Of a stretch of DNA of 60,316 nucleotides, positions 46,287 through 60,316 are shown in pieces. Numbering within the stretch: the first letter of the stretch is position 1; each line of letters starts with the position of its first letter. The stretch comes from an uncultured Lachnospiraceae bacterium. Lineage in GTDB: Bacteria > Bacillota > Clostridia > Lachnospirales > Lachnospiraceae. The notes under the pieces are model-generated. The model worked only from the letters and a program-made list of their open reading frames with translations. It made no database searches and was not told the origin of the DNA. The DNA lies in assembly GCA_900316165.1 (NCBI GenBank), contig ONBW01000007.1, forward strand, positions 1-60,316, read 5' to 3'. A program made the translations under genes and the position numbers.

Positions 46287-47050
46287 CAGTTATTCTCCGA
46301 AGAACTATCTGTCGAGCTCTTGTCTGAACTTCCTGTATCAGTCTTACCATCACTTGAAGTTTCTTCATAAAGCTTATTAATGTCGTCACTGCTCATCAGC
46401 GCAGTAGTAAGGAACTCACTCTCCTTTTTCATGTCCTCATCATCAGGATACTGCTCGAGATAATTGTTCGCATATTCAAGTGCATTTGAAAAATCACCGT
46501 CTTCCTCGCAGCTTTTGACTTTAAGCCTCATTACGTCTTTAGAAGCCTTTGCATCTTTAGGCATTTTTTCATAAAATTTATCTGCTGCTTCACGCATTCC
46601 AGCGTTTATCAGTGAAAGGTACGCATTCTCATAAAGCTGTGAATCCTTTGAGATGGATGAAGCCTTTTTAAGATACGACAGAGCCTTATCCTCGTTACCA
46701 GTATTGCAGTAGATAAGCCCACTCAGATAGAGTGCTTTCTCGTCCTTTGAATCAAACTCAAGAAGCCCCTTGAGCGTCTGTAAAGCATCGTCATTTTTTC
46801 CAAGCTTGTACTGGGCAGTCGCCTTGTAGAGGGCAATATCCTTCTCCTCAGCTCCAACAGTCGTAGACTGTGACAGGGCATTCGAAAAATCCTTTAATGC
46901 CTTATCATAATCCTCCTGCTTCATAGCCTCTATGCCATCCCTCTTATAGTCCTCCTGCTTCCGTTTTTTTCCGCAGCCGGTCATAGGAAATGCCAGTGAG
47001 ATTATCAGTACAAATGATAAAATAGTAAACAGTTTATTTTTTATTTTCAT
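46286..47050 (-). CDS. TPR-containing lipoprotein
   Basis: A 254-residue exported protein. Lipobox FPMTGC follows a hydrophobic signal (MKIKNKLFTILSFVLIISLA), so the Cys near position 25 should be lipidated. Four to five tetratricopeptide-like repeats follow (about 40-215, e.g. YDKALKDFSNALSQS, LYLSGLIYCNTGNEDKALSYL). The tail is Ser/Asp/Thr-rich. The MKIKNK start is favoured because upstream codons are not signal-peptide-like. No Shine-Dalgarno is visible and a perfect extended -10 ends nine bases before the ATG. The function is probably protein-protein contact at the cell surface; its link to pyr genes is unexplained. Confidence 0.8.
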   Translation of the reverse strand: MKIKNKLFTILSFVLIISLAFPMTGCGKKRKQEDYKRDGIEAMKQEDYDKALKDFSNALSQSTTVGAEEKDIALYKATAQYKLGKNDDALQTLKGLLEFDSKDEKALYLSGLIYCNTGNEDKALSYLKKASSISKDSQLYENAYLSLINAGMREAADKFYEKMPKDAKASKDVMRLKVKSCEEDGDFSNALEYANNYLEQYPDDEDMKKESEFLTTALMSSDDINKLYEETSSDGKTDTGSSDKSSTDSSSENN

Positions 47051-47059
47051 AACCATCTG

Positions 47060-47068
47060 ATTATACCA
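47060..47068 (-). promoter_or_regulatory. Extended -10 immediately upstream of the lipoprotein gene
   Basis: TGG-TATAAT on the minus strand ends nine bases before the ATG at 47050, so a transcript from it would be leaderless or nearly so. The -35 region is poor. Confidence 0.4.
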
Positions 47069-47105
47069 AATTTCAGCCACTGTGAACAGTGAACGTGTGA
47101 TTTTT

Positions 47106-48374
47106 TTAATCTTCTGCACCGCCATTTTCAGGCTGTGGGATCCTGATACTTACCTTTTCAATCCTTCTATGCTTTACTTCCTGTACTGTAAAAATAACCC
47201 CTTCTTTAGATACATATCTCTCTCCCTTCCTTGGCAGATGGTCAAAGAGTCCGAGCAGATATCCACCTATCGTATCGTAATCCTCAGATTCAAGCTTTAA
47301 ACCTGTAGCTTCGGAGAGGTCGTCAAGATTCATAGAACCGATAACACTATACTCACCTGGTGCCGTCTGAGTAAGCTCAGTCTCTTCTCTCTCGTCATAC
47401 TCATCCTGGATATCTCCAACGAGCTCCTCAAGAAGATCCTCAAGTGTGACTATTCCTGAGACTGAACCATACTCATCGAGGACTATTGCCATATGAATCC
47501 GTTTCTTGCGCATCTGATTGAAAAGCTCATCTGCGTTTTTAAATTCATATGTAAAAAATGGTTCCCTGAGATAGCTCTTCAGGGAGAACTGTTCTCCCTC
47601 TTTTCTTTTTAAAAGGTCCTTCATATTCAGGATACCAACTACATGGTCAGTATCTGTGTCGTAGACAGGAATTCTGGTGTACATCTCATCAAGAAAAACA
47701 CTTCTGACCTTAGAGTATGACCAGTTGACGTTAATCATCGTAACATCGATTCTCGGGATCATCAGCTCCTTTACCTCTGTATCTGAAAAATCAAAGAGGT
47801 TGTTGATGTAATCCTTCTCTTCATTTTCTATCGCTCCGCTCTCGTTTCCGACGTCTACTATCGTACGGAATTCAGCCTCTGTCATCTGTGACTTCTTATC
47901 GTCCTTATCTGCTCCCACAAGCTTCATGATAAATCCGCAGATCTTATTGACGATAAATATGACAGGTGTGAGCACTACAGTGAGCGCATAGATGATTCCA
48001 GCTACACGAAGCGACATCCTAAGTGCCTGACGACTTGCCATATTCTTCGGTGTTATCTCTCCAAAAATCAAAACAAGAAGTGTCATTACTCCTGTTGCTA
48101 TTCCAGCGCCAGAGCTTCCAAACAGATTCATGAACAGTACGGTGGCAAGTGACGAAGCTGAGATATTCACGACATTATTTCCTATCAGAATAGCTGAGAG
48201 CATTTTCTGTGTATTTGCTGTCACCTTCTGAACCATTTTAGCGCGTGAGTCACCCTCGTTTGCCATAGTACGGATCTTAAACCGGCTGACAGTTGTAAGC
48301 GCCGTCTCTGACGATGAAAAGAATGCTGAGAGGGCTAAAAGAATAACTAATAATATAATCTGTATAACTACCAT
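47106..48374 (-). CDS. CNNM/CorC-HlyC family transporter-associated protein
   Basis: A 422-residue membrane protein. The DUF21 (CNNM) membrane domain (about 1-155, four helices) includes LSAFFSSSETALTTVSRFK and GEITPKNMASRQA. A CBS pair follows (about 205-335, RIPVYDTDTDHVVGILNMKDLL and IVLDEYGSVSGIVTLEDLLEELVG), then a C-terminal CorC/HlyC domain (about 350-420). Family members are linked to magnesium homeostasis; the old name hemolysin is misleading. It may be the first gene of the transcript that continues into pyrC. Confidence 0.9.
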   Translation of the reverse strand: MVVIQIILLVILLALSAFFSSSETALTTVSRFKIRTMANEGDSRAKMVQKVTANTQKMLSAILIGNNVVNISASSLATVLFMNLFGSSGAGIATGVMTLLVLIFGEITPKNMASRQALRMSLRVAGIIYALTVVLTPVIFIVNKICGFIMKLVGADKDDKKSQMTEAEFRTIVDVGNESGAIENEEKDYINNLFDFSDTEVKELMIPRIDVTMINVNWSYSKVRSVFLDEMYTRIPVYDTDTDHVVGILNMKDLLKRKEGEQFSLKSYLREPFFTYEFKNADELFNQMRKKRIHMAIVLDEYGSVSGIVTLEDLLEELVGDIQDEYDEREETELTQTAPGEYSVIGSMNLDDLSEATGLKLESEDYDTIGGYLLGLFDHLPRKGERYVSKEGVIFTVQEVKHRRIEKVSIRIPQPENGGAED

Positions 48375-48422
48375 TCTGTTCTCCTGTGCTCCTGAACGTC
48401 AGTACGTCTTAGTGTGTATAAG

Positions 48423-48450
48423 TAAAGGGGCATTTTGCCCCTTTAGTATA
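48423..48450 (-). promoter_or_regulatory. Hairpin fused to an extended -10 promoter upstream of the CorC/HlyC gene
   Basis: TAAAGGGGCA and TGCCCCTTTA (48423-48432 and 48436-48445) form a perfect 10-bp stem. TGC-TATACT (hexamer 48445-48450) directly abuts it on the minus strand, with ACGACA 17 bases further up. The hairpin probably terminates the 1963-residue protein's transcript, while the start point predicted for the promoter falls inside the loop. Confidence 0.6.
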
Positions 48451-48529
48451 GCACAGTTTTTATTTGATGTCGTCACCCAGAAAAACTTCTACAAATACCA
48501 CCTTACTAAATTTTTCGTCATTTTGTTTT

Positions 48530-51500
48530 TTAACAGACTCCCTTGTATTCCACTCCATCATATATCAAAACAGTTCTCTTCGAAGTAACTATACGGGAAC
48601 TGTTCGGAGAATAGAGTATAATATTCGTTCTTTCTGAAGGTATATAGATGGTTTCTTCTGTGTCACCATTCTGCATTGTTATCAGATAAACGCTCGCATT
48701 CTCATCAGGTGTTATCTGCTCTGTAAGCGTGCTTCCACGCTCTATTTTCTTACTGCTTGTTTCCTGCTTCTTTATGAATGCTGCCCTTACCGTATCAGAT
48801 TCAATATAAAATTCTTTATCATCAAGTGTCCTGTAGACCGACCTGACTGTGTATTCTGATACCCTGCTGTCTCCTCCTTCTCTATAATACTGGGCATATA
48901 AAACTTCACTATTTTCAATTCTCTCAGCAGCCGAAACTTCCGTTTCATCCACATCCAATTCGTCTGATGCCTTCTCATCTATCTCTGAAGAAATTTCTGC
49001 ATCTGACGGAATACCTTCCTCTGGCTCCACCTGACTTGTATCTACTGTTTCATATTCTCCTTTGCTCTTCTCAGGAAATAGAAGATCTTCCTTCACCTGA
49101 TAAAAGTCTGCATTTTTATCAAACTGGAAGACAAGCCTTATACCTTCTCCTGTGTAGATATCCTTTTGTTTTTTATACAGGAGCTTTGGTGCCGTCAGCT
49201 TCAGGGTTTTCTCTTCTACTACTTCTGACTTTCGGCTTGTATACTCCTTTCCGCCATCTGAAGAAATGACATGTGCCTCTGCGGAGATTGAATAAATCGT
49301 ATCATCACTCATCAATTTAGAAATAATACACGAATTTTCTTTATCAGGCTCTAAATCCATATAGTGTCTCTCTCCGGTCTTTGTCTGATAATAGATACGG
49401 ACAAAATCTGCTGCTGTCTGTTCTTTAAGCTTCAGCCGGATAGACCTGCAGCCAGCCTCAGTTGAACTGATATAAGGTCTTTTCAGAAATGCTGTCTCTA
49501 TCTCATTCGAATACTCACTCTGCTCAGTTAGTTCATCACTTGCAAGCCTGCTGCCTAATGCCCTGACACGATATCTGTAAACGCCCTCATCTCCTATCGC
49601 AGTATGATATGTGATCACATCAAAGTCAAAATACTTCTCACCATTCTCATTCTCAGTGAATTCATCTATTTCCTTTATGACCCTATAGCCCTCAGGCTTG
49701 ACTCCCTTTAAACATTTCCTTTCAATTATGTACTTTCTTGCCCTGGAGTCTTTTTCAAATGACAGCCGAAGTTTCTGATCTTCCCCGGTATCATTTTCGT
49801 ATACTGATACTTTAGGTTTTTCAAGTTTTTTTGTATGGACTGTCTCTTTGCAGGTCATCAGCTTTTTGCCGCGATAATAAAAATCAGCTGTCACCAGATA
49901 ATGCTCATTTGGCTTAAGATCTGAAAATACTATTCCAGAGCACATCTTCTGATTTGTTTTACGCTCTATTGTTTTTATACTTGAATCTCCCCACTGTGAG
50001 AGCGTAATCTCAGTAGTGTCGATTTCGGATTTAATATCCCAGGTCAGATGAATCGAAGAAAGTCCTTCATTTACTATAAGAGGCTTGTTCTTCTGATTCT
50101 CAGCCGTCTTTTCATCCAAAACGCAGTTCGCTATAAATTCATTTCTCCAGGTAAGTGCGTCACAATTCTTCTTATACAAAAACTCTTTAGAACGGATGAT
50201 ATCATCAGAATCAAAGACCCACTTTTCAGTTGCTTGTGATTCTTCTGCTGCCTGCCCTAAAAGCTTCCTGTAGCTTTCCTCTCTCCAGACAGACTTCGGT
50301 TCAAGGCTGTCTAAATCAGCTGAAGAAACAGCTCTTACATATATAGGTGCACTGTAAAAAGTATCTGAAGATGTTCCTGCATTTCCTCTATCTGTCGAAT
50401 CAGGTATATCATCCGTTGTATCCTCTGCATCATCACTCATTACGTAGACCTTTGCCTGAGCCACTGAAAGATTCTGTTTAAATCTCTTAAGGTCGGCATC
50501 ATTTTTATCAGTAACCGAATAGTAGACGCTTACACTGCCAGAATCTCCCATCTGCTTTAAGGCATCTACAGAGAATATCTTCTTTATCGGGTCTGTATAG
50601 ACTTTGATGTATTTTCTATCTATGTCTCCATCCTCAAAGTCAGACGCTGTGACAGCTTTCTCTGAAAGCAGTCTATCAAGTACAGCTGACTCATCTGACA
50701 ATTCATCCGCATAAAACGAACTGTCATATGCAGAAAGAACAGGGTACTCATCCCATACTGCATATATTCTGAGAGATGCCTTACCATTATCAATTGATAC
50801 CTGGCCCTTCTCCACAGCATAAATATAAAATGACAACGCCCCAAAGTTTGGATAGTCCTCTATAAAGCTTTCATCTGATACTATCTCAGATGGTCCGTGC
50901 AGCTTGTCTCCTTTACAGTATACCCCATCATCTTTATAGATGGCATTCTTATCAAAGCTGAAACCCTGAAATGATGTCTGGTGCTGATATATCCTGTCAG
51001 TCATACTCTCATAATCGAACTTTTTTCTCGTGATATTTTTTATGAAATACTCATCATAGGTCCCGTCAGGTCCAGTATTTCCATCAAATACAAAGGTTCC
51101 ATCTACAGGTTCTCTTGTATAATTTGGGACACCATTTGTCTGTCCATTCCCATCAAAAATCATAGAAAAGTTCGTATCCCATACAGCATAAAAAGTATGA
51201 TCTTCACTATATATCCTTATAATCCTGTCTTTATCATATATAATCTTCTTATACCCATCTTTGTCCCGGTCTCTATAACCAATCTGCTTAAGACCGGCCG
51301 TGATTTCCTTTTTATTCCAGAATATCCGGCACCTGTCCTCTTCAAAAGTCAGCGGCGCTGTCGTAAATTCCTGTGGTTCTCTCCAGTAAAATTCTGTCAC
51401 TTCTGGTGTCTTAGAAGTAATCCGATCGTCTTTTACAGGGAAATCCGAATCATATATTCCCGAAAGAAGGCAGGATAAAACTATAGTTCCTGTCCTTCCA

Positions 51501-54421
51501 TTTGTGGCTGTTCCAGCTTCAGGCTGTATTTCAGCTTTCTTTTCTTTATCAATTACATACGGTCCAAGGCCACACCTCAGATCTGCCTTGTGTCCTTTTA
51601 TCTGATCAAAGCATAACAAAAATCCTGTAAGTAGCCCTGTTATGCGAAGTTTCTCCTGGTCATCAAGCTTCTGGTAGGAAGTATCCGAAAGATCGGTAGT
51701 ACCATCCGCACTGTAAAGTTCTACCATTACCCTTCCAGGTTCTCTGTCACTTTCTGCCGTATTAAACGATGCAGTAATTGAAGGCAGGTCATCCTCATAC
51801 TGTTCCTCGTAGAGAATCCTGACCGTTGACTTGATAACCCCATTTTCATCTTTTCTTGAAGTGAGAAAGACGGCATCGCTGGCCTCTCCTGTTTTAACAA
51901 TTGCCCCTGGCAGCATATAAAAAATACCGTTCTGCCAGACAGCAGCCTTAAGCGAATTCTCTATAAGAACATCCCTGTAGTAATACATGATGCCGTTATT
52001 TTTTATACCACATACTGCCCCATTTATCTCTACCTGATTTCCTTCCTCATCCAGATCATCTCCTATGTATGCTGTTCCTTTCTCTTGATTAATAATACCG
52101 GCTTTCTGAGCTTTTATAACTGCATTTTTCACATATAGATGGCCTTCATTTTTTATTCCTGTGCCACACGATCCGGTCTCTTCTGAAATCTGGGTATCAT
52201 CACTAATAATAACTGCTCTGCCACTCTCTTTGACACAAATGCCATACCCCTGAAGCGAAGTCCAGATATTTGTCTGTGCTGTCCCGTTTATTTCCATATA
52301 TCCGCCCATGGCATCATCTTCAAGAATATTATCAGAGCCATTTTTTCCGATTACAATTCCTCTTAACCTGCCGTTCAGAGTAAACGGCTTCCCGCTCTCT
52401 ATATATACTGACCCAAACTGGGCATCTATCCCTGTATCTGCGGCATTAATTTTTCCTCCTGTTATCGTAAGGATAGAATTATTTCCAAAATCCAAAAAAG
52501 CCGATACATCATTGTTCCTTGTCGCTGCTCTTTCTACTATCTTTGCCCTTTCCTGATTTCCCTCTCTTATTACTATAAAATTCCTTATGATACCGATATT
52601 TCTGTTTTCTGATATTCCTGTATCATCTGATGTGATTTTAATATCATCAGGAAGATCAAGTCTCATACAGTTATAGATACCACAGCATTCTGCTCTGTCT
52701 TCCTCTGCCACAGTTTCCCAAGCCCCAGAGTGGGTTGTACTGATATTCACATTCTCCTCTATGATAAGGTTTCCACGGTTTTGAATTCCAAAACTGTTAG
52801 TCTCTGCATCCTCTAAAAAAGCACCTGTAATTAAAGACATGGTAGTATTCGAAACCGTCACAATACCTTTTTCACCAATTTTTTTCTGATAACTTTCCCC
52901 GTCAAAAAGCTCCCCGCTAAGCGCCTCCTCAACTGCTGCGTAGGAAGCATCATCAAATACATCAATACCTCTAATACCATAGATCTGACATCCACTTATA
53001 TATAAAGTCCCGCTTGATCTGAAGTCAAAAGCGTCTCCGCAGTCACCTCTCGCTTCACAGTCAGTAACCGAAGCATATGAATCACCCTGCAGCAGCATTC
53101 CATTGTATCTGCCATAAATGGTGCTTTTCGACACACTTACATCTGCCTTAACACTTCCTGAATTCTGTACCAGAATGCCTGTTCCAGCATAGTCTTCAAA
53201 GTTAGTATAGCTGAATCTACCCTTTTCACCCATTCCGTATAGATATGAATTTCTGATAGTGGCATCCCCATTTCTAGGGACTATAGCACTATTATGGGCC
53301 AGAACAGTACAGCTGTCTAAGACCAGATGTCCTGTAGAAGACTCATGCTCATCAAAAGTGCTGTCATATCCTACCTCTATTCCGCAGCCAGCATCACTTC
53401 CAGTAGAATTCACTATTTCATACTCACCACCATAAGTCTTTGTATATACAAGTGACCCTGAAAACGCATGCAGTACTGCACCAGATAGATTAAGCTTAGC
53501 ACCATTAAACACATGGAAAATAAAGCCGTAAACGCCTCGCTTTATAGTATGGCCACCACCTGCTATAGTCACACTTGAAATAGACCCACTTACAAGCCAT
53601 CTCTGTCTTGGAAGGCCATCTATATCTGACTGCAGGCTGCCACAGTCTATTTCCGCACCCAATGAAAGTGATGAATACTTATGAACTTTTTCTTTTAGAT
53701 CATAAGCATTGCGAATTATGGTATCCTGTGGTGTAGTTCTCACATCTGAAAGGCTTCCACTAACCGTACGGCTCTCTTTGACATAGTAGGTATATGGTTC
53801 TGGATTACCCTCAGAATTTATCCTGGTTCCTGGTCTTGGCGAGTCGAAGTAATATGTCTGCGTATAGGATATAACAACAGTATAGGTCTCATAATCCAAC
53901 AGATTCGAAAGTCTGACCGTACAACTGTTACCTGAAGATGACAACTCTATTTCAGCAGCTCCACTGTCATTTCTGCCTGCTCCTGTCGTATCCCAGGAGC
54001 TAAGAGAAAATACCACAACGTCAGTATAACCATCACTGCTTTTCGATGGCACAGAAAAATTCATGGTTTCTTTATATCGCCCATTGCCAGAGGACGCCGC
54101 AACCTTTCTGTCAGCTGTTTTTATAAGTACTGGTGTCTTATTGGATTTCTTTTTGTTTTTCTTATCTGATTCTCCAACAGCTGACGGCTTAATTAAAGAA
54201 TCTTTCTCAGATGTCGCTGTTTTAAAAGAGTCCTTATATGCACCAGCTTCAGAATTATTTTCTTCAATGATCTCGTTTTTTATTTCCCGTTTTTCATACT
54301 TCTCATCTTTTAACTGATTTTCGCCTGCATATACACTCAAACTCCCAAAACTCCCAGGCAAAAATAATGCCAGTGCCAATATGCCTGCAAGTCCTCTTTT
54401 GATTCGTCTCCTCTTCTGCAT
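48530..54421 (-). CDS. Giant exported surface protein with beta-helix and Fn3-like regions, last gene of the Tad-like operon
   Basis: A 1963-residue protein. The signal peptide (about 1-33) has an RRRIKR start and ends YAG. A polar spacer leads to a long right-handed beta-helix-like region (about 240-880) of short strands with turns such as NSYLYG, SKSTIYGRYNG and GTLYISGCQIYGIRG. An InlB/Flg_new-like part (about 1070-1230) holds two AVWD motifs, FYAVWD and RIYAVWD. At least three Fn3-like units (about 1450-1760) follow, e.g. SIHLTWD, KPKVSVYEND and RSIRLKLKEQ. There is no LPXTG, membrane helix or cell-wall-binding repeat at the C-terminus. GAGGGGAT precedes the ATG, nine bases after the previous stop. 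It is probably an adhesin or pilus-displayed protein. Confidence 0.85.
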   Translation of the reverse strand: MQKRRRIKRGLAGILALALFLPGSFGSLSVYAGENQLKDEKYEKREIKNEIIEENNSEAGAYKDSFKTATSEKDSLIKPSAVGESDKKNKKKSNKTPVLIKTADRKVAASSGNGRYKETMNFSVPSKSSDGYTDVVVFSLSSWDTTGAGRNDSGAAEIELSSSGNSCTVRLSNLLDYETYTVVISYTQTYYFDSPRPGTRINSEGNPEPYTYYVKESRTVSGSLSDVRTTPQDTIIRNAYDLKEKVHKYSSLSLGAEIDCGSLQSDIDGLPRQRWLVSGSISSVTIAGGGHTIKRGVYGFIFHVFNGAKLNLSGAVLHAFSGSLVYTKTYGGEYEIVNSTGSDAGCGIEVGYDSTFDEHESSTGHLVLDSCTVLAHNSAIVPRNGDATIRNSYLYGMGEKGRFSYTNFEDYAGTGILVQNSGSVKADVSVSKSTIYGRYNGMLLQGDSYASVTDCEARGDCGDAFDFRSSGTLYISGCQIYGIRGIDVFDDASYAAVEEALSGELFDGESYQKKIGEKGIVTVSNTTMSLITGAFLEDAETNSFGIQNRGNLIIEENVNISTTHSGAWETVAEEDRAECCGIYNCMRLDLPDDIKITSDDTGISENRNIGIIRNFIVIREGNQERAKIVERAATRNNDVSAFLDFGNNSILTITGGKINAADTGIDAQFGSVYIESGKPFTLNGRLRGIVIGKNGSDNILEDDAMGGYMEINGTAQTNIWTSLQGYGICVKESGRAVIISDDTQISEETGSCGTGIKNEGHLYVKNAVIKAQKAGIINQEKGTAYIGDDLDEEGNQVEINGAVCGIKNNGIMYYYRDVLIENSLKAAVWQNGIFYMLPGAIVKTGEASDAVFLTSRKDENGVIKSTVRILYEEQYEDDLPSITASFNTAESDREPGRVMVELYSADGTTDLSDTSYQKLDDQEKLRITGLLTGFLLCFDQIKGHKADLRCGLGPYVIDKEKKAEIQPEAGTATNGRTGTIVLSCLLSGIYDSDFPVKDDRITSKTPEVTEFYWREPQEFTTAPLTFEEDRCRIFWNKKEITAGLKQIGYRDRDKDGYKKIIYDKDRIIRIYSEDHTFYAVWDTNFSMIFDGNGQTNGVPNYTREPVDGTFVFDGNTGPDGTYDEYFIKNITRKKFDYESMTDRIYQHQTSFQGFSFDKNAIYKDDGVYCKGDKLHGPSEIVSDESFIEDYPNFGALSFYIYAVEKGQVSIDNGKASLRIYAVWDEYPVLSAYDSSFYADELSDESAVLDRLLSEKAVTASDFEDGDIDRKYIKVYTDPIKKIFSVDALKQMGDSGSVSVYYSVTDKNDADLKRFKQNLSVAQAKVYVMSDDAEDTTDDIPDSTDRGNAGTSSDTFYSAPIYVRAVSSADLDSLEPKSVWREESYRKLLGQAAEESQATEKWVFDSDDIIRSKEFLYKKNCDALTWRNEFIANCVLDEKTAENQKNKPLIVNEGLSSIHLTWDIKSEIDTTEITLSQWGDSSIKTIERKTNQKMCSGIVFSDLKPNEHYLVTADFYYRGKKLMTCKETVHTKKLEKPKVSVYENDTGEDQKLRLSFEKDSRARKYIIERKCLKGVKPEGYRVIKEIDEFTENENGEKYFDFDVITYHTAIGDEGVYRYRVRALGSRLASDELTEQSEYSNEIETAFLKRPYISSTEAGCRSIRLKLKEQTAADFVRIYYQTKTGERHYMDLEPDKENSCIISKLMSDDTIYSISAEAHVISSDGGKEYTSRKSEVVEEKTLKLTAPKLLYKKQKDIYTGEGIRLVFQFDKNADFYQVKEDLLFPEKSKGEYETVDTSQVEPEEGIPSDAEISSEIDEKASDELDVDETEVSAAERIENSEVLYAQYYREGGDSRVSEYTVRSVYRTLDDKEFYIESDTVRAAFIKKQETSSKKIERGSTLTEQITPDENASVYLITMQNGDTEETIYIPSERTNIILYSPNSSRIVTSKRTVLIYDGVEYKGVC

Positions 54422-54430
54422 AGAATCCCC

Positions 54431-55090
54431 TCACCTGTATACTGCTATACGCTTTGTAACTCCGTTTTCTTTTTGTTCGTTCCATCTGACAAAGGAATGC
54501 CCCTTGTACTCTGGTGCCTCTATATCAGCTGTCACCTTCATTCCAGACGCAAATCTCTTCTGATAGTACAGATAATCCTCTCCCTCTAAGTAGTCAAAGC
54601 CTGCCTCCTTGGCAGCCTGCCACGGAATATAGTAATTTATATACTCCGATGGTCTTCTGCTCTCTCTTTCTACTATCTGTACCGTTGACGCACTGACTGT
54701 TCCTGTCTTTCCGTTCGGATATGTAAAATACTCTGTCACCTTAGCTGAAAGTATCCCTTTATAGATGTCAGCTGCCTTGATCTCTATCTCAACACGCTGC
54801 CCTGAGTCAGAGCTGTCAGCAGAATAGACTTCTCCATTTTCAGAGACAACTCTGCCATCTGTTTTCATTTTGCCAAGGAAGCTTGTGATAAAATCTGCTG
54901 CAAGTGCGTCATTATCATTTATCTGTGTCTTCTGTGTGAGGCAGGCATTCTCAAGTGACTGCCTGGCTGACACTTTAAGTGCCCTCTCAAGTTCTGTCTG
55001 CCTCAGGTCTTTAGAATGGACACTCATCAGAATAATAACCACCAGAACAGTCACTATCGTGCTTATACAAACTATTGCCACATGTTTCAT
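54431..55090 (-). CDS. Single-pass pseudopilin-like protein of the Tad-like operon
   Basis: A 219-residue protein. An N-terminal membrane helix (about 4-23) starts almost at the first residue, followed by an extracytoplasmic domain with a helical stalk (25-75) and a beta-rich C-terminal part ending in RIAVYR. The shape is that of TadE/TadG-like minor pseudopilins, without a clear leader. The C-terminal KVTADIEAPEYKGHSFVRWNE has a repeat-like flavour also seen in the giant protein downstream. It overlaps the previous gene by four bases. Confidence 0.7.
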   Translation of the reverse strand: MKHVAIVCISTIVTVLVVIILMSVHSKDLRQTELERALKVSARQSLENACLTQKTQINDNDALAADFITSFLGKMKTDGRVVSENGEVYSADSSDSGQRVEIEIKAADIYKGILSAKVTEYFTYPNGKTGTVSASTVQIVERESRRPSEYINYYIPWQAAKEAGFDYLEGEDYLYYQKRFASGMKVTADIEAPEYKGHSFVRWNEQKENGVTKRIAVYR

Positions 55091-55617
55091 TCCCTGCCCC
55101 TCCTCTTGTCTACAAAAACAAAAATCTGGTAATTACTTACAATGGAATTTGAGTCAGTAACCGATGTTACAATCCTGTATGTCCCAGGCAGATTAAACTC
55201 CAGATAGGAATCGCTGCCTGACATATCTACATGAACTACCTGATCGGTCACCTCATAACCATCACTATGGCGGTCATTTTCTCTCAGCAGATATACTGAA
55301 TTGATGTGTACTCTCTTAGCATTGCCATTCTTCAGTCCAATAAGAGCCGCTGCATCTTTTTCATAGTAAACTTTCTGATAGAGTCCCACCTTCATATCAC
55401 CCTGCATAGCTATATTATCAGCATGGATAGAAAGCCTGTCACCTAGAGCTTTCTCCCCTTCCTCTGCCTCAGCCTTGATAATCCCACTGTCTAAAACTCC
55501 TGTCATTTGACCTGACAGCATAAAGAGGCCTATCCCTGTAAAAACAAGAGCCATTATCAGTACAAATGTCACCCCGGAGATTATAGAATTCCCATATTCC
55601 TTTATCAGTGCGTGCAT
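55087..55617 (-). CDS. Pilin-like protein with LIKEYG start and extracellular domain
   Basis: A 176-residue protein. It starts MHALIKEYGNSIISG and runs into a long hydrophobic helix (to about 36), then a beta-rich extracytoplasmic domain of about 135 residues. The first 12 residues match those of the 33-, 48- and 61-residue proteins of the operon. GGGAGGA precedes the ATG. It may be a minor subunit that carries the domain outside while sharing the filament-forming helix of its small neighbours. Confidence 0.75.
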   Translation of the reverse strand: MHALIKEYGNSIISGVTFVLIMALVFTGIGLFMLSGQMTGVLDSGIIKAEAEEGEKALGDRLSIHADNIAMQGDMKVGLYQKVYYEKDAAALIGLKNGNAKRVHINSVYLLRENDRHSDGYEVTDQVVHVDMSGSDSYLEFNLPGTYRIVTSVTDSNSIVSNYQIFVFVDKRRGRE

Positions 55618-55630
55618 ACTTCCTCCCTCT

Positions 55631-55777
55631 TTACAGCAGATACCCGCAGTAAGATGTCATAATACTGTGCAGGGCTCCGCTTCTGCTTAAAAAAATAAAC
55701 GTAAAAAGCCCTATTACTGCGATAACAGCAACTGCTCCAGCTATACTTTCTCCATATTCCTTTATTAATTCCTGCAT
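55631..55777 (-). CDS. 48-residue Flp-like pilin
   Basis: A tiny frame: MQELIKEYGESIAGAVAVIA, a helix to about residue 30, then SRSGALHS and a short tail ending GYLL. AAGGATGGGGAGA precedes the ATG, and it sits 17 bases after the 33-residue gene and 13 before the 176-residue one. The EYG signature, hydrophobic helix and size are those of Flp/Fap pilins, but no leader with a Gly cleavage site is present. A longer overlapping frame in another register is a shadow. Confidence 0.75.
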   Translation of the reverse strand: MQELIKEYGESIAGAVAVIAVIGLFTFIFLSRSGALHSIMTSYCGYLL

Positions 55778-55794
55778 CTGTCTCCCCATCCTTT

Positions 55795-55896
55795 CTAGGT
55801 GATAACATTCAGAAACATTGTAAAAAAACCAGCGATCAGTATCCCTGTAATCACATACAGGATGGCTTCACCATGATCTGCAATAAGCTCCTTCAT
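55795..55896 (-). CDS. 33-residue membrane peptide, Flp-like
   Basis: A very short frame, MKELIADHGEAILYVITGIL followed by 13 more residues, with GAGGAAA before the ATG. It is almost entirely one helix. It has the same first-ten-residue pattern as the other small subunits (ADHGEA in place of KEYGES). It sits between the 115- and 48-residue genes with short gaps. It is either a minimal pilin or an accessory peptide. Confidence 0.6.
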   Translation of the reverse strand: MKELIADHGEAILYVITGILIAGFFTMFLNVIT

Positions 55897-55906
55897 AGAC
55901 TTTTCC

Positions 55907-56254
55907 TCATGTCATAACTGACGATACAGAGTGTTTAGTCGTAAAACCTATGACCGGCACTCTGAAGCTGTAATTTAGTGTTGCTCTGGCATAAGAGATA
56001 TGCTTTTTTCCATTCTGTCTGGCTTTTACAACCTCAAGCGCATCTTTTCCTTCACCAAACTGTTCCTTTGCATCTTTTCTGCAGGCCTCTATGACCTCGT
56101 CCGAATAATTGGAATTCTCGATTTTCTCCACATATCCAAGTAGTGCCCGGTTCGCATTAGACGCCTGTATTGAAGAGGCAATAAGGCTTATCCCCATACT
56201 CGTAAGCAGGAAAAAGAAAAACAGTCCTGCAAATGATTTAAATACTGTCTCCAT
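55907..56254 (-). CDS. TadE/DUF4320-like single-pass protein
   Basis: A 115-residue protein. A hydrophobic segment (about 8-28, FAGLFFFFLLTSMGISLIAS) is preceded by METVFKS. A helical and beta-rich extracytoplasmic part includes ANRALLGYVEKIENSNYSDE and ends with LNYSFRVPVIGFTTKHSVSSVMT. The shape and position resemble TadE-like pseudopilins or DUF4320 proteins of clostridial Tad clusters. It starts nine bases after the platform protein gene. Confidence 0.65.
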   Translation of the reverse strand: METVFKSFAGLFFFFLLTSMGISLIASSIQASNANRALLGYVEKIENSNYSDEVIEACRKDAKEQFGEGKDALEVVKARQNGKKHISYARATLNYSFRVPVIGFTTKHSVSSVMT

Positions 56255-56263
56255 ACTCTCCTC

Positions 56264-57613
56264 CTATACGATTCCTGTCGCCATACTGCCCATATATACT
56301 GCAAACAGAAGGATCATATCGCAGACAAGCTTCAAGCCTCCTGTAAGCTGTGGTGCAAGAAAGAGCGCATACATTCCTGCAAGAGAATCTGAATTCTGCT
56401 GCCTTTTTGCCTTGTCACTCATCTCCTGATTTCGTTTGATGATCTCCGAAATCTGACCTCTGGCCTCTCCACCTTTTCCTTCTGAGATAGAATAGAGCAT
56501 CTTCATCGTACTCCTGACCTCCGGAAGCGTGAATTCAGACAGAAAATTCATATATGCCCTCTTGTCATTCGGATCTATCCTGAGTGCCCCTATCATCTCC
56601 TTCAATGCAGGTTTTAAGATTGCCGGAGCATTGTCATACGATTTAAAAATTGCCACCTGTACATTCTCAGACTGCATAAGGAGTGAAAGCTGCATAAGCC
56701 ACTCAGGGAAGCAGGCCTTGATATGCTCCTGCAGATGCTTCTTTGCTGTACGCTTGCCTAAAGAATCTAAAATGCCATTTCCGTACTTTTGAAATCTCTC
56801 ATACTGCCGCAGATACTCTTTCTCCTTGTCCTTATCGTCTGCTAAATACCCGGCTGTAAGAAGCGAATCCGCCTTGTAATAGATCAGAAGATCTAAGACA
56901 AGCACCACTACTGTAACCGCCTGTGCAAATGGATTAGCTGACACATCAAGATTCATCTGGCCTGCCATATAGTAGATCATCGAGCATAGAAGCAGCGAGG
57001 TGATGATGGAAAGCACTATCTCTCTTCTCTTCACCTTCTTTTCCTGCTGCAGCGAATAAACTCTGTCAGCCCACATCCTTCTCGATTCAAGAAGCAGCTC
57101 AATAGACTCTGAATACTCACCACCTAAGGCTTCAGTTCTAAGAGCGAACCTGTGCATTACTGTAAGTCCCTCATATGGATATTCCTTCTCAATACCCTTT
57201 AATGCCTTCTCCTCAAAATCAGATTCGTTATAAGTATTCTTGATATGGTCTATAGCTTTCTCAAGAGTTTTTTTCATCTCTCCCTCTTCGAAGATATCAT
57301 GAGTATCCTCAAGAGAGGTCAGAACCTTTCTGCTCTTCATAAATGAGTAGAGAAACTGCTCCATGTAGATGTTAAGATCTGAGAATTTCTGCTGATAATA
57401 TCTGTTCCTGTAGGTGTTCCTTAAAAGAAGAGGAAGTATAATCATTCCAGCTATAAACAGAATTATCTGCGGTATTACATGCAATCCAAAAAATCTTCCT
57501 AGTAAGAACAACCCCAATATAACAAACAGATACCTGAAAAATGCCTGCTTAGGTGAAAATACATATCCATACGCTGCCAGCTCATCTGACAGCTGCTTTC
57601 TGTTTCCTGCCAA
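56264..57613 (-). CDS. Fused TadB/TadC-type platform membrane protein
   Basis: A 449-residue inner-membrane platform protein of the type II secretion F family. Membrane helices lie at about 27-65 (two), 195-245 (two) and 420-447. Two cytoplasmic helical regions lie between them, one at about 75-190 (MEQFLYSFMKSRKVLTSLED, LRTEALGGEYSESIELLLES) and one at about 300-410 (FPEWLMQLSLLMQSENVQ, FTLPEVRSTMKMLYSISEG). Two T2SSF-like halves suggest TadB and TadC in one chain. Translation must start at TTG (57613) or a weaker internal site, because no ATG lies near; it begins 32 bases inside the ATPase gene behind GGGGGATGA. Confidence 0.8.
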   Translation of the reverse strand: MAGNRKQLSDELAAYGYVFSPKQAFFRYLFVILGLFLLGRFFGLHVIPQIILFIAGMIILPLLLRNTYRNRYYQQKFSDLNIYMEQFLYSFMKSRKVLTSLEDTHDIFEEGEMKKTLEKAIDHIKNTYNESDFEEKALKGIEKEYPYEGLTVMHRFALRTEALGGEYSESIELLLESRRMWADRVYSLQQEKKVKRREIVLSIITSLLLCSMIYYMAGQMNLDVSANPFAQAVTVVVLVLDLLIYYKADSLLTAGYLADDKDKEKEYLRQYERFQKYGNGILDSLGKRTAKKHLQEHIKACFPEWLMQLSLLMQSENVQVAIFKSYDNAPAILKPALKEMIGALRIDPNDKRAYMNFLSEFTLPEVRSTMKMLYSISEGKGGEARGQISEIIKRNQEMSDKAKRQQNSDSLAGMYALFLAPQLTGGLKLVCDMILLFAVYMGSMATGIV

Positions 57614-58889
57614 CGAAAGTCATCCCCCTTCTCTTTCTCTTTATGAATTCATCCTCCATGTCTGTAAGCATTCCGGCCACCTGTGCCTGCCTCTCTTCAC
57701 TATCATAGGAGGAATCGTCTCTGTACTGTGCTCTGCTATCTGCGACTGCCAGCGCATTCCTGTCACGGGTTAAGACATACTCCTTAACCGGGATCTCCTC
57801 GTCCGAAGAATTTTCCAGCGTTTCAGGAGTCTTTTCAGTCTCTTCGTAACTGTACGGATCATCTATATGAGCCTCTGCAAATTTCTTCTTTATCACTTCC
57901 GGAAAATCACAGTCCGTAGGCTCACCCTGATCAAGAACCAAAACACAGCTGTTTTCTCTATTTTCCCTGTAAAAAAATCCAATCTGGTCTACATACCTGA
58001 TCAGATCAAACGCTCCATTATCCCGCTTCTTAAGCTTTCTTCTGATAAGTACAGCCACATCTATAAAGCTGTAGATGTCATTCTCAAGCCTGCCCTCAGA
58101 GCGCAGATTCCCAGCCATATTCATCATACGGTCAGGGACCTTTCTGACGTCATCTGTGTGAAGCGTCGTCATACCTCTTACTCCTGTAGAAAAGCCTTCG
58201 AGCAGATAAACTACCTCTTTGCTTCTCGCCTCAGATAGCATCATCCATTTCGGATTAAGTCGTAGACAGGTCTTAATAGCTTTCGTATAATCCATAACTG
58301 GGTTGATACGCAGCTCAACTGAATCTGCTCCAGGATTTAAAAGACTGTAATGCCACTCTGGGTTGTCCTCTATCGTAATAACTCTCTGTTCTACAGGGAT
58401 ATACGAAGAAAAATACTTCGCACACTCAGTCTTTCCTACGCCTGGCTCTCCACAGAAGACGAGATTCATCCTCGAGTGCACACAGTTTATCAATAGATTT
58501 ATCATCTGATCTGACAGATACCCGTCCCTTACCATTCCCTCACGGGTAAGTCTTGTAAAAGGCATAGACTTTCTGATACAGATAGCCCTGCCAGTAATAG
58601 CTGCTGACTCGTGGACAATAGTTATACGAAGTGTATCCGTTTCAGCCTCGAGTACGGGAGACTGTTTGTGAAACTGCTTGCTGACACAGTTCGCGACTCT
58701 CTTCGTAAAAGCATTAACAAACTCTTCAGGAAGCTGCTTATCAGACGGATACCTCTGATTTCTCGTATCCGAAAGCCACAGCCTTCTGCCATCAAAGTCT
58801 ATGTCAGTAATAGACTCATCTGAAATATACTGATAGAGAGGCCCGAAAAACTCCGGGCTGATCTCCACCTTTTCTTTTTCTTCCGCCAT
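57582..58889 (-). CDS. tadA: TadA/CpaF-type secretion ATPase
   Basis: A 435-residue hexameric ATPase. The N-terminal domain (about 8-110) contains ITDIDFDGRRLWL. The motor domain has Walker A FCGEPGVGKTEC (about 145-156), an Asp box ITIEDNPEWHYSL, Walker B-like MMLSEARSKEV (about 208-218) and a His box GMTTLHTDDVRKVPDRMMNMA. Beyond about residue 320 a charged, probably disordered tail of about 110 residues (acidic, then KRKRRGMTF) exceeds the usual end of the family. GAGGTGAT precedes the ATG. Confidence 0.9.
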   Translation of the reverse strand: MAEEKEKVEISPEFFGPLYQYISDESITDIDFDGRRLWLSDTRNQRYPSDKQLPEEFVNAFTKRVANCVSKQFHKQSPVLEAETDTLRITIVHESAAITGRAICIRKSMPFTRLTREGMVRDGYLSDQMINLLINCVHSRMNLVFCGEPGVGKTECAKYFSSYIPVEQRVITIEDNPEWHYSLLNPGADSVELRINPVMDYTKAIKTCLRLNPKWMMLSEARSKEVVYLLEGFSTGVRGMTTLHTDDVRKVPDRMMNMAGNLRSEGRLENDIYSFIDVAVLIRRKLKKRDNGAFDLIRYVDQIGFFYRENRENSCVLVLDQGEPTDCDFPEVIKKKFAEAHIDDPYSYEETEKTPETLENSSDEEIPVKEYVLTRDRNALAVADSRAQYRDDSSYDSEERQAQVAGMLTDMEDEFIKRKRRGMTFVGRKQKAAVR

Positions 58890-58911
58890 ACATCACCTCA
58901 ATTCTCTATGA

Positions 58912-59097
58912 TCAAGGTGATGTCGGTAAAACGCCTTTGCTGGCATTCGAGAAAAATCCACTGATAAGGTCGGAAAAAGCTTTTCCAACGACACTCGACC
59001 CATCTTTTCCGATAAGAAATGTCACAAGTGCTATAAGTGCTAAAATGGCCACTACTGTAATCAGGGCTGGCCCATATTCCTTGAGTATATCCTGCAT
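58912..59097 (-). CDS. Flp-like pilin, 61 residues
   Basis: The first gene of the operon. The product starts MQDILKEYGPALITVVAILA, continues through a 22-residue hydrophobic helix, then has a Gly/Ser-rich polar part (GKDGSSVVGKAF, ISGFFSNASKG). AAAGGGGAT precedes the ATG. As the longest and most promoter-proximal of the LIKEYG proteins it is the likely major subunit. There is no prepilin leader with a Gly at -1. A larger overlapping frame (58898-59218) lacks a ribosome binding site and pilin features. Confidence 0.78.
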   Translation of the reverse strand: MQDILKEYGPALITVVAILALIALVTFLIGKDGSSVVGKAFSDLISGFFSNASKGVLPTSP

Positions 59098-59123
59098 TCT
59101 GGTATCCCCTTTCGATACATGCT

Positions 59124-59138
59124 GCCGGCGGAGCCGGC
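59124..59138 (-). other. GC-rich hairpin in the leader of the Tad-like operon
   Basis: GCCGGC (59124-59129) and GCCGGC (59133-59138), a self-complementary pair with a three-base loop, lie 26 bases upstream of the first start codon. No T-run follows, so it is a leader structure rather than a terminator. Confidence 0.5.
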
Positions 59139-59209
59139 GTTAATTGATCTGGTAAAAATAAGACGCGTCCCCAGCACTGCTTCTTAAATATCAGCTGTGC
59201 TTTTTTAAA

Positions 59210-59238
59210 ATGATACACTCAAAAAGCCCCTAATTCAA
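59210..59238 (-). promoter_or_regulatory. Promoter of the Tad-like operon
   Basis: TTGAAT (59233-59238) and TATCAT (59210-59215) with a 17-base spacer on the minus strand, four and five matches to consensus. The leader would be about 105 bases long. The 387-base gap up to the Mrp gene is otherwise AT-rich and holds only the Mrp terminator. Confidence 0.6.
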
Positions 59239-59451
59239 TTAAGCGCCGATTAAAGATTTATAAAATAATTTTTATTTTTTAAACACAATCTGTTCACGAA
59301 AGTAAAATAAATAAATATGATTTTTGATGTGAAAAATATGGCAAAAATCCAAATATGAATTTTTTATTAATAATTGGTTTTAACCAGAGAAGGCTGGAAC
59401 CGTTTTTTGACACACATAAGCAGGATACGTTTATTTTTTGATGATAAGCAT

Positions 59452-59478
59452 AAAAAAAGACAGCCCCGAAGGGCTGTC
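59452..59478 (-). terminator. Terminator of the Mrp-family gene
   Basis: GACAGCCC (59459-59466) and GGGCTGTC (59471-59478) form a perfect 8-bp stem with a TTCG loop on the minus strand, followed by seven T (59452-59458). It separates the Mrp gene from the Tad-like operon. Confidence 0.92.
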
Positions 59479-59484
59479 CAAAAA

Positions 59485-60316
59485 TCAGTTCAGTGCCTCA
59501 AGCATCCTCTCTGTCATCGGCTCGAAAGGCGCCTTGATCTCATAGCACTTTCCCTCGTCCTCTTTTTTGGCGTACTCAGGATCGATAGGCAGGCGGCCAA
59601 GCACAGGAAGTCCAAGCTCCGCTGCCACCTCATCTATATGGCTCTCGCCAAATACAGAAAGCTTCTCGCCGCAGTGCGGGCACTTCATATAGCTGTAGTT
59701 CTCCACGATTCCGAGAACCGGAATGTTCATCATCGAAGCCATATTGTAAGCCTTCTTTACGATAAGGCTTACGAGGTCCTGAGGGCTGGTCACGATTACG
59801 ACTCCGTCCACAGGAAGCGACTGGAATACTGTGAGAGGCACATCACCAGTTCCTGGCGGCATATCCACGAAGAGATAGTCCAGATCACCCCAGACTATAT
59901 CAGTCCAGAACTGCTTTACAGCGTTTGCGATAACAGGGCCTCTCCAGATAACCGGAGCTGTCTCGTCGTCAAGCAGGAGGTTAATCGACATGATCTTCGT
60001 GCCGTCCTCAGCCTCAATCGGGTAAGAGCCCTTGTCGTCTCCGTATGCCGGGCCATGTACGCCGTACATCTTCGGAATCGAAGGTCCCGTGATATCGGCA
60101 TCAAGTATGCCGACCTTATATCCGGCGCGCACCATCATAGATGCCAGCTGTCCGGTAACGAAGCTCTTTCCGACTCCGCCCTTTCCGCTGATAACACCGA
60201 TCACATGCTTAATAGACGAGTATTTGTTCAGATCCTCGTGGAAGTCTGTCTTCGCCTGCTTCTGCTCTCCCTTGATCCCTAAGTCCTTCCTGAACTGAGC
60301 GACCTCTTTATCGATC
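59485..60316 (-). CDS. Mrp/NBP35-family ATP-binding protein, 5' end beyond the window
   Basis: About 277 residues are visible. The deviant Walker A is VISGKGGVGKSFVTGQLA, followed by VGILDADITGPSIPKMYG, DYLFVDMPPGTGDVPLTV, VTSPQDLVSLIVKKAYNMA and the CPHCG pair that binds a bridging iron-sulfur cluster. The family carries Fe-S clusters to apoproteins. The frame is open through 60316 (residues such as VAQFRKDLGIKGEQKQ), so the GTG at 60204 is not the start and the real N-terminus lies outside. Confidence 0.92.
   Translation of the reverse strand, partial: IDKEVAQFRKDLGIKGEQKQAKTDFHEDLNKYSSIKHVIGVISGKGGVGKSFVTGQLASMMVRAGYKVGILDADITGPSIPKMYGVHGPAYGDDKGSYPIEAEDGTKIMSINLLLDDETAPVIWRGPVIANAVKQFWTDIVWGDLDYLFVDMPPGTGDVPLTVFQSLPVDGVVIVTSPQDLVSLIVKKAYNMASMMNIPVLGIVENYSYMKCPHCGEKLSVFGESHIDEVAAELGLPVLGRLPIDPEYAKKEDEGKCYEIKAPFEPMTERMLEALN

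Follow-up and report, generated by a model that had tools for sequence, protein, structure and literature searches.

What does a compact run of nine genes assemble, when a Tad-type motor stands near one end and a protein of 1963 residues at the other, and how is the large protein tied to the motor? The question is raised by the window, the whole stretch of 60,316 nucleotides of Lachnospiraceae DNA analysed here, whose parent assembly has 117 contigs and 2.59 Mb. An earlier note, based on the letters alone, saw in this run a minimal monoderm Tad variant that may display or export a dedicated giant protein. This interpretation is partly supported: the compact, monoderm, Tad-like machine coupled to an exported protein stands, and the dedication of the giant does not.

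The nine-gene operon

All nine reading frames are confirmed at the position given in the note. They lie on the minus strand, and neighbours overlap or are set apart by anything from a few bases to a few tens of bases. The features, in gene order, are the following.

48530-59097, minus strand: whole nine-gene operon, from reading frames and recurrence in relatives
58912..59097, minus strand: major pilin-like subunit, 61 aa, MQDILKEYGPALITV..., no canonical class III leader
57582..58889, minus strand: TadA/CpaF-type ATPase, 435 aa (PF00437, E 1.8e-17; best PDB matches are CpaF)
56264..57613, minus strand: fused TadB-TadC platform (TadBC), 449 aa, TTG start, from profile-profile comparison
55907..56254, minus strand: TadE-like minor subunit, 115 aa, METVFKSFAGLFF..., Gly10 in 43/43
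55795..55896, minus strand: tiny pilin-family peptide 1, 33 aa, MKELIADHGEAILYV...
55631..55777, minus strand: tiny pilin-family peptide 2, 48 aa, MQELIKEYGESIAGA..., frame open from the ATG at 55789
55087..55617, minus strand: p176, pilin-family N-terminus and Ig-like-looking C-terminal domain
54431..55090, minus strand: p219, single-pass minor subunit with an InlB/List_Bact repeat-like end (alignment A4)
48530..54421, minus strand: cargo, 1963 aa, with signal-peptide-like start, beta-helix-like N-terminal half, module and Fn3-like tail
50102..50761, minus strand: common cargo module, residues 1221-1440 of the cargo (alignment A3)
59458..59479, minus strand: terminator-like hairpin 3' of the upstream gene mrp

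These frames are genes rather than chance open reading frames, because they recur across 44 loci, the window and 43 others. The hairpin sets the operon apart from mrp, whose product, a MinD-like ATPase, is encoded on its far side. The single promoter of the earlier note is plausible only: three sigma-70-like matches (9/12) are found on the minus strand. Rfam gives zero matches at gathering score over 47000-60316. By inspection, none of the nine genes is a TadZ or an RcpC/CpaB gene, and a second, retraction-type ATPase is absent from them; that the operon holds no prepilin peptidase gene, as the note had it, is borne out.

Motor and platform

The window TadA carries the motifs GEPGVGKT (Walker A), SEAR and TTLH, and these ATPase motifs are present in all 42 TadA proteins that reach 300 aa, a set from which two contig-cut sequences were left out; the length of these 42, by longest frame, goes from 350 to 510 aa. 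The charged tail, said to have about 110 residues, is indeed there, at a length of about 90 and variable. In the window (57582-57690) this variable tail has a basic end, RGMTFVGRK-like, that is repeated in close relatives.

The fusion of tadB and tadC was rightly called, though it is weak in Pfam, where only 2/20 TadBC members match T2SSF at E<=0.1. Profile-profile comparison with canonical TadB and TadC profiles, of 22 sequences each with one in duplicate, relates the N-terminal half to TadB (probability 88%, E 2.9e-6) and the C-terminal half to the T2SSF domain of TadC (probability 70%, E 4.2e-5). The TadBC profile gives nothing significant against the single TadB, TadC and PilC sequences of its own genome, and no match to solved structures at E<=1. 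The two halves indicate that TadBC is a genuine fusion of TadB and TadC. A TadA/CpaF-type secretion ATPase and a TadB plus TadC (T2SSF) platform are thus both at hand, and it is because of this motor and platform that we place the operon on the Tad branch.

Distribution among genomes

The neighbourhood comparison proposed in the earlier note recovers the same operon across Lachnospiraceae relatives. A TadA scan yields 43 named loci, whose labels are Lachnospiraceae, Roseburia or Eubacterium throughout and include Roseburia sp. 1XD42-69 and Lachnospiraceae bacterium C10; each has TadA and TadBC, and most have the remainder of the operon. Counting the window, and with several loci cut by contig ends, TadA and TadBC are found in 44 of 44 loci, the TadE-like gene in 43 and p219 in 37, while the pilin-family HMM matches 157 short open reading frames in 43/44; among the 43 named loci alone, TadE-like and pilin-family genes are each present in 42. 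The neighbours are less constant: mrp lies in the stretch in 18/44 loci and an hlyC/CorC-type gene in 17/44, in varying orientation. One locus (L022:3502-6632) is reduced to TadA, TadBC and TadE-like genes followed, by eye, by a LysR-like gene; pilin-family gene, p219 and cargo were not found there.

The machine, scored by TadBC, is present in 52 of 396 sampled genomes of the family and in 4 of 393 genomes sampled across the class. Two of these four belong to the family of the window (its own genome and G091); the two others, outside the family, have the same gene set and a module-bearing cargo, in a different order in one of them (G503). Among the literature matches listed, seen as titles and abstract starts in a coverage that is not exhaustive, there is no published description of the operon.

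The last gene

The beta-helix attributed to the giant is weak: the window protein has no Pfam match at E<=0.01, and support comes from its clade, ten proteins of 1645-1963 aa in which PF13229 is matched by four and fn3 by four at E<=0.01. The PF13229 score of L010, the only one inspected, is below the curated cut-off, and a profile search with the giant finds no solved structure at E<=0.01. Proteins of this clade have a signal-peptide-like start; by inspection, an LPXTG-type end is absent from the cargo end ...VLIYDGVEYKGVC and from the other nine A2 ends.

The region 3' of the last subunit gene can be read in 38 loci, six others ending too soon to be evaluated. An exported-type protein, in three cases contig-cut, is found in 28 of the 38, and none in 10. 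These proteins differ. Six contain a subtilase domain in Pfam (PF00082, in L030, L044, L045, L046, L051 and L052). In nine of ten subtilase-type proteins checked, three of the nine being outside the Pfam scan, the Asp motif is present together with the His and Ser motifs; L041 lacks the Asp motif. Cargo of the Roseburia type thus shows the Asp-His-Ser triad of Peptidase S8, and the window protein is not of that type. In L031-L033 the last-gene protein has about 900 aa.

A dedicated giant is therefore wrong as a general description, since the slot holds different proteins. The giant as fixed partner of the machine is rejected. We prefer to see in it an exchangeable cargo, in which a single C-terminal module follows an N-terminus that may be beta-helix-like, a subtilase or something else.

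Two further arrangements were seen around this slot. Two close relatives, L010 (11581-12741) and L050 (19528-20646), have after the giant a further protein of exported type, which looks BspA-like by eye; the window has none. In L073, L105 and L135, an extra protein of 177-283 aa, with the end YNWS(A/V)FVF, stands between p219 and the cargo.

A common module and its link to the machine

The module is present in 24 of the 28 last-gene proteins; the remaining four are the three contig-cut ones and L046, whose frame is disrupted. Eighteen of the 24 built the model, and six are independent of it. Against solved structures, a profile search returns three weak matches, at E 0.014-0.035.

The module profile matches 44 of the 396 family genomes at E<=1e-6, and 42 of these 44 also have the machine: the module is thus found in 42/52 machine-positive genomes versus 2/344 machine-negative ones (G294 and G362), a co-occurrence with a Fisher p of 1.5e-44 when genomes are treated as independent. 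In 35 of the 42 genomes a match lies at most 12 kb from the machine; in the other 7 it is found only elsewhere, in some from contig ends. Nine genera in which the two sampled genomes differ were chosen for contrast: six agree with the association, two (g142 and g28) disagree, and in g170 the machine occurs without module.

A looser local search of the 10 machine-positive, module-negative genomes finds a partial module beside the machine in five (G081, G152, G235, G250 and G333) and, within the same looser limits, none in G006, G091, G141, G169 and G281. Two of the latter have exported-type neighbours despite the missing module, of 433 aa in G169 and 647 aa in G091.

On the side of the machine, the gene next to the module-bearing cargo is that of p219, a protein whose repeat-like end matches PF09479 in 5/18 cases. 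In one locus (L034) the module is fused to p219, and separate cargo is not adjacent. Genome G256 has a machine without p219 or cargo, and a pair made of p219 and a module protein lies about 1.26 Mb away.

It could be objected that this is co-location only, a Tad-like pilus beside an unrelated exported surface protein whose module is an Ig- or InlB-type surface domain. The module does have weak Ig-like matches in Pfam, and local cargo is missing in 10 of the 38 evaluable loci. However, unrelated neighbours would hardly account for the scarcity of the module in machine-negative genomes, nor for the cases in which it accompanies p219 at a distance from the machine or is fused to p219, so that we consider co-location quite improbable. 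The module as a generic surface domain is likewise disfavoured by the co-occurrence and the within-genus contrasts. Independent occurrence of the giant in relatives, the outcome that the earlier note took as decisive against itself, is not seen in those terms: 10 of the 38 evaluable loci are without local cargo, yet the module is nearly confined to genomes that have the machine. We read the module as a docking tail that, judging from the genomic associations, would couple Sec-exported proteins to the tip of a pilus.

Module proteins also occur away from the machine, in L096, L098, L099, L100, L104 and L101. In L101:5673-6573 (genome G086, contig C12), a 241-aa module-bearing protein of exported type adjoins a pilin-family peptide of 46 aa; by eye the surroundings seem to be mobile, with topoisomerase-like and ParM-like neighbours. 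In L098:6150-9911 and L099:6588-9803, from two genomes of one genus, module proteins of 1253 and 1071 aa adjoin genes that look, again by eye, like those of chemotaxis and flagella.

Peptidases and other pilus systems in the genome

The genome of the window (G000) has a canonical Tad locus on contig C41 (L053:5984-15274), with two A24 peptidases, one T2SSE and two T2SSF genes, a short Flp1-like pilin with a normal leader, a DUF5702 protein and an FHA protein. The earlier note would have yielded to a standard Tad set that completes a normal pilus from elsewhere, and half of this is found: the set exists, but since motor, platform and pilin are all its own, it is no mere complement to the window cluster, although it may supply a peptidase. 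T4aP-type genes on contig C67 include two T2SSE matches and pilins that start with GFTLVEL after the leader. Since the genome has this separate Tad locus and T4aP-type genes, the window operon is an additional system.

The genome search for a prepilin peptidase, also suggested in the note, gives three A24 genes, all outside the operon. No machine-bearing genome among the 52 is without an A24 peptidase; this is uninformative, because 395 of the 396 family genomes have one (393 above the curated cut-off).

The small subunits and their N-termini

The processing of prepilins is regarded as one of the steps that define type IV filaments. At E<=1, the 61-aa protein encoded here has no match to any Pfam family, Flp and Flp1_like included; the canonical C41 pilin, by contrast, matches PF16982 at 5.5e-19. 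The DUF4320 label of the earlier note falls away, the window TadE-like protein being unmatched at E<=1 in Pfam and NCBIfam; lacking a Pfam match, the name TadE-like rests on position and shape. The Ig-like domain of p176 has a weak Pfam match in 1/18 proteins only.

What four of the small subunits have in common is the N-terminus. The pilin, the two tiny peptides and p176 all begin with M-x-x-[IL]-[IL]-[KE]-[EQ]-Y-G followed by a hydrophobic helix, a kinship of the tiny peptides and the 176-aa protein that the note had passed over; the TadE-like proteins begin with M-x-x-[IV]-[IV]-K-x-F-x-G. A register pattern that demands Met at position 1 fits 185 of the 203 genes in the five subunit slots, 18 not fitting. 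Among the 185, 183 have a ribosome-site match of 4 bases or more, 110 an in-frame stop at most 12 codons upstream, and 21 another plausible upstream start.

The start-spacing test locates the motif without demanding Met and takes the best-supported start. The distance from start to Glu/Gln is 6 in 40 of 40 pilins located (41 genes), in 39/40 p176 proteins, in 33/35 tiny 2 and in 33/40 tiny 1 peptides, where the exceptions are four with spacing 7 and three in which the motif matched the wrong place; the distance from start to Lys is 5 in 43/43 TadE-like proteins. The motif was not located in one pilin, one p176, two tiny 2, one tiny 1 and no TadE-like protein. Canonical Flp controls have distances of 16 (10 genes), 17, 20, 29 and, in one gene with an internal ATG start that is probably misassigned, 4; these Flp1-like controls come from a pattern search of 22 loci, 15 of which gave one, and amount to 14 distinct genes, L053 and L111 sharing one.

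The cleavable class III leader of the Tad branch, with Gly or Ala at -1 and Glu at +5, is not found: if position 7 is taken as the Glu at +5, the -1 residue falls at position 2, where none of 142 pilin-family proteins has Gly or Ala; 14 have one somewhere in positions 2-6. According to PMC11067988, Glu5 and Tyr6 of Tad pilins serve as an inter-subunit hydrogen-bond core, and in the Caulobacter filament this core is made of Glu19 and Tyr20, that is, mature residues 5 and 6. The E/Q7-Y8 of our subunits corresponds to this pair.

Because the start spacing is fixed and the E/Q-Y pair is that of the Tad filament core, these sequences lead us to favour subunits that would be synthesized without a leader. 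Cleavage further in is formally possible, because Gly9 and Gly10 both precede the hydrophobic helix. It would make the subunits atypical prepilins, M-x-x-x-x-K-E-Y-G being a nine-residue leader (ten in TadE-like proteins) cut after Gly by a peptidase that normally serves the canonical Tad or the T4aP system, and the mature pilins would be without Glu5. Gly9 is indeed present in 138/142 pilin-family proteins, though the search pattern was in part selective for it; Gly10, free of such selection, is present in all 43 TadE-like proteins. Usual leaders, as PMC10191384 describes them, end in Gly or Ala, vary in length and are often, not always, followed by Glu5; peptidases can be shared among systems according to PMC6668835, and A24 genes are present in 52/52 machine-positive genomes. 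Such a cut, however, would lose the conserved E/Q-Y pair and leave Pro or a charged residue at the new N-terminus in 61 of the 142; the spacing is fixed here and variable in the canonical controls, and A24 genes occur in nearly every genome of the family. We hold processing to be rather unlikely.

A proposed mechanism

The explanation that best covers the whole, and which we regard as moderately probable, is a Tad-branch filament machine with leaderless subunits and a tip-docked, Sec-exported cargo. The machine would be a type IV filament system of that branch reduced to ATPase, one fused platform and small subunits, the latter beginning directly at the membrane-core helix. Through TadA and TadBC, the 61-aa subunit would be polymerized into a short pilus or pseudopilus, whose tip would consist of the tiny peptides, the TadE-like protein, p176 and p219. 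The large protein, exported by Sec, would dock through its module onto p219, or onto a tip that contains p219, and the growing filament would take it through the thick cell wall, for display or release. The activity would be supplied by the N-terminal part of the cargo, beta-helix-like in the window and a subtilase in Roseburia-type loci. In its most specific form, a peptidase-independent filament whose subunits are made mature, with exchangeable Sec-exported effectors docked at the tip by the common module, the proposal is tentative.

There is also the possibility that the filament is a secretion pseudopilus rather than a display pilus, a short piston that frees the cargo into the medium, as a monoderm analogue of type II secretion. 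Likely enzymes among the cargo (the subtilases with triad motifs), window-clade cargo with a signal-peptide-like start and without LPXTG end, and nine genes without a retraction-type ATPase all agree with a piston. Against it, the window-type cargo is adhesin-like in look, with its beta-helix and Fn3 parts, and the fusion of p219 and module in L034 would tether the module. We consider a purely secretory role doubtful, and keep to a tip-docked cargo that may be displayed or released.

If the filament does skip prepilin processing, this step would be dispensable, and the role of the N-terminus becomes testable. If varied exported proteins do have a docking tail in common, this would amount to delivery by substrate tag in bacteria with a single membrane, here gut and rumen Lachnospiraceae, by a logic comparable to that of diderm systems; it is possibly a new route by which monoderms display or deliver large proteins.

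Comparison with known systems

The operon is a Tad-branch variant, and we do not call it a canonical Tad pilus because the leader expected of its pilins was looked for and is absent. With the canonical Tad/Flp pilus it shares the TadA/CpaF ATPase, the TadB and TadC domains, and very short helical pilins with an E-Y core. It differs in having its platform in a single gene, an operon without peptidase gene, no Flp1_like pilin by Pfam, subunits outside the canonical leader register, and an exported cargo that carries a common module.

Among other systems, the Com pilus has processed ComGC-type pilins and no known cargo, and we know of no C-terminal module shared by varied cargo in the TcpB-TcpF system of Vibrio cholerae. 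As a minimal filament of a one-membrane cell our operon is like the monoderm Com pilus, which, unlike it, is described in PMC10790768 as dedicated to DNA uptake. The likeness to TcpB-TcpF, as cited in PMC12075869, is that of a secreted protein docked on a minor pilin at the pilus tip, a docking that we propose here for a pilus of a different class.

The Kil pilus of Myxococcus xanthus, as presented in PMC12075869, is Tad-like and has interchangeable tips whose variable part is on minor pilins: it shares with our operon a Tad machine, several minor pilins, small Flp-like adapters and exchangeable tip domains. In the Kil system, according to the same source, the variable domains belong to minor pilins with predicted peptidase sites; here, they belong to a separate exported protein, in a monoderm host.
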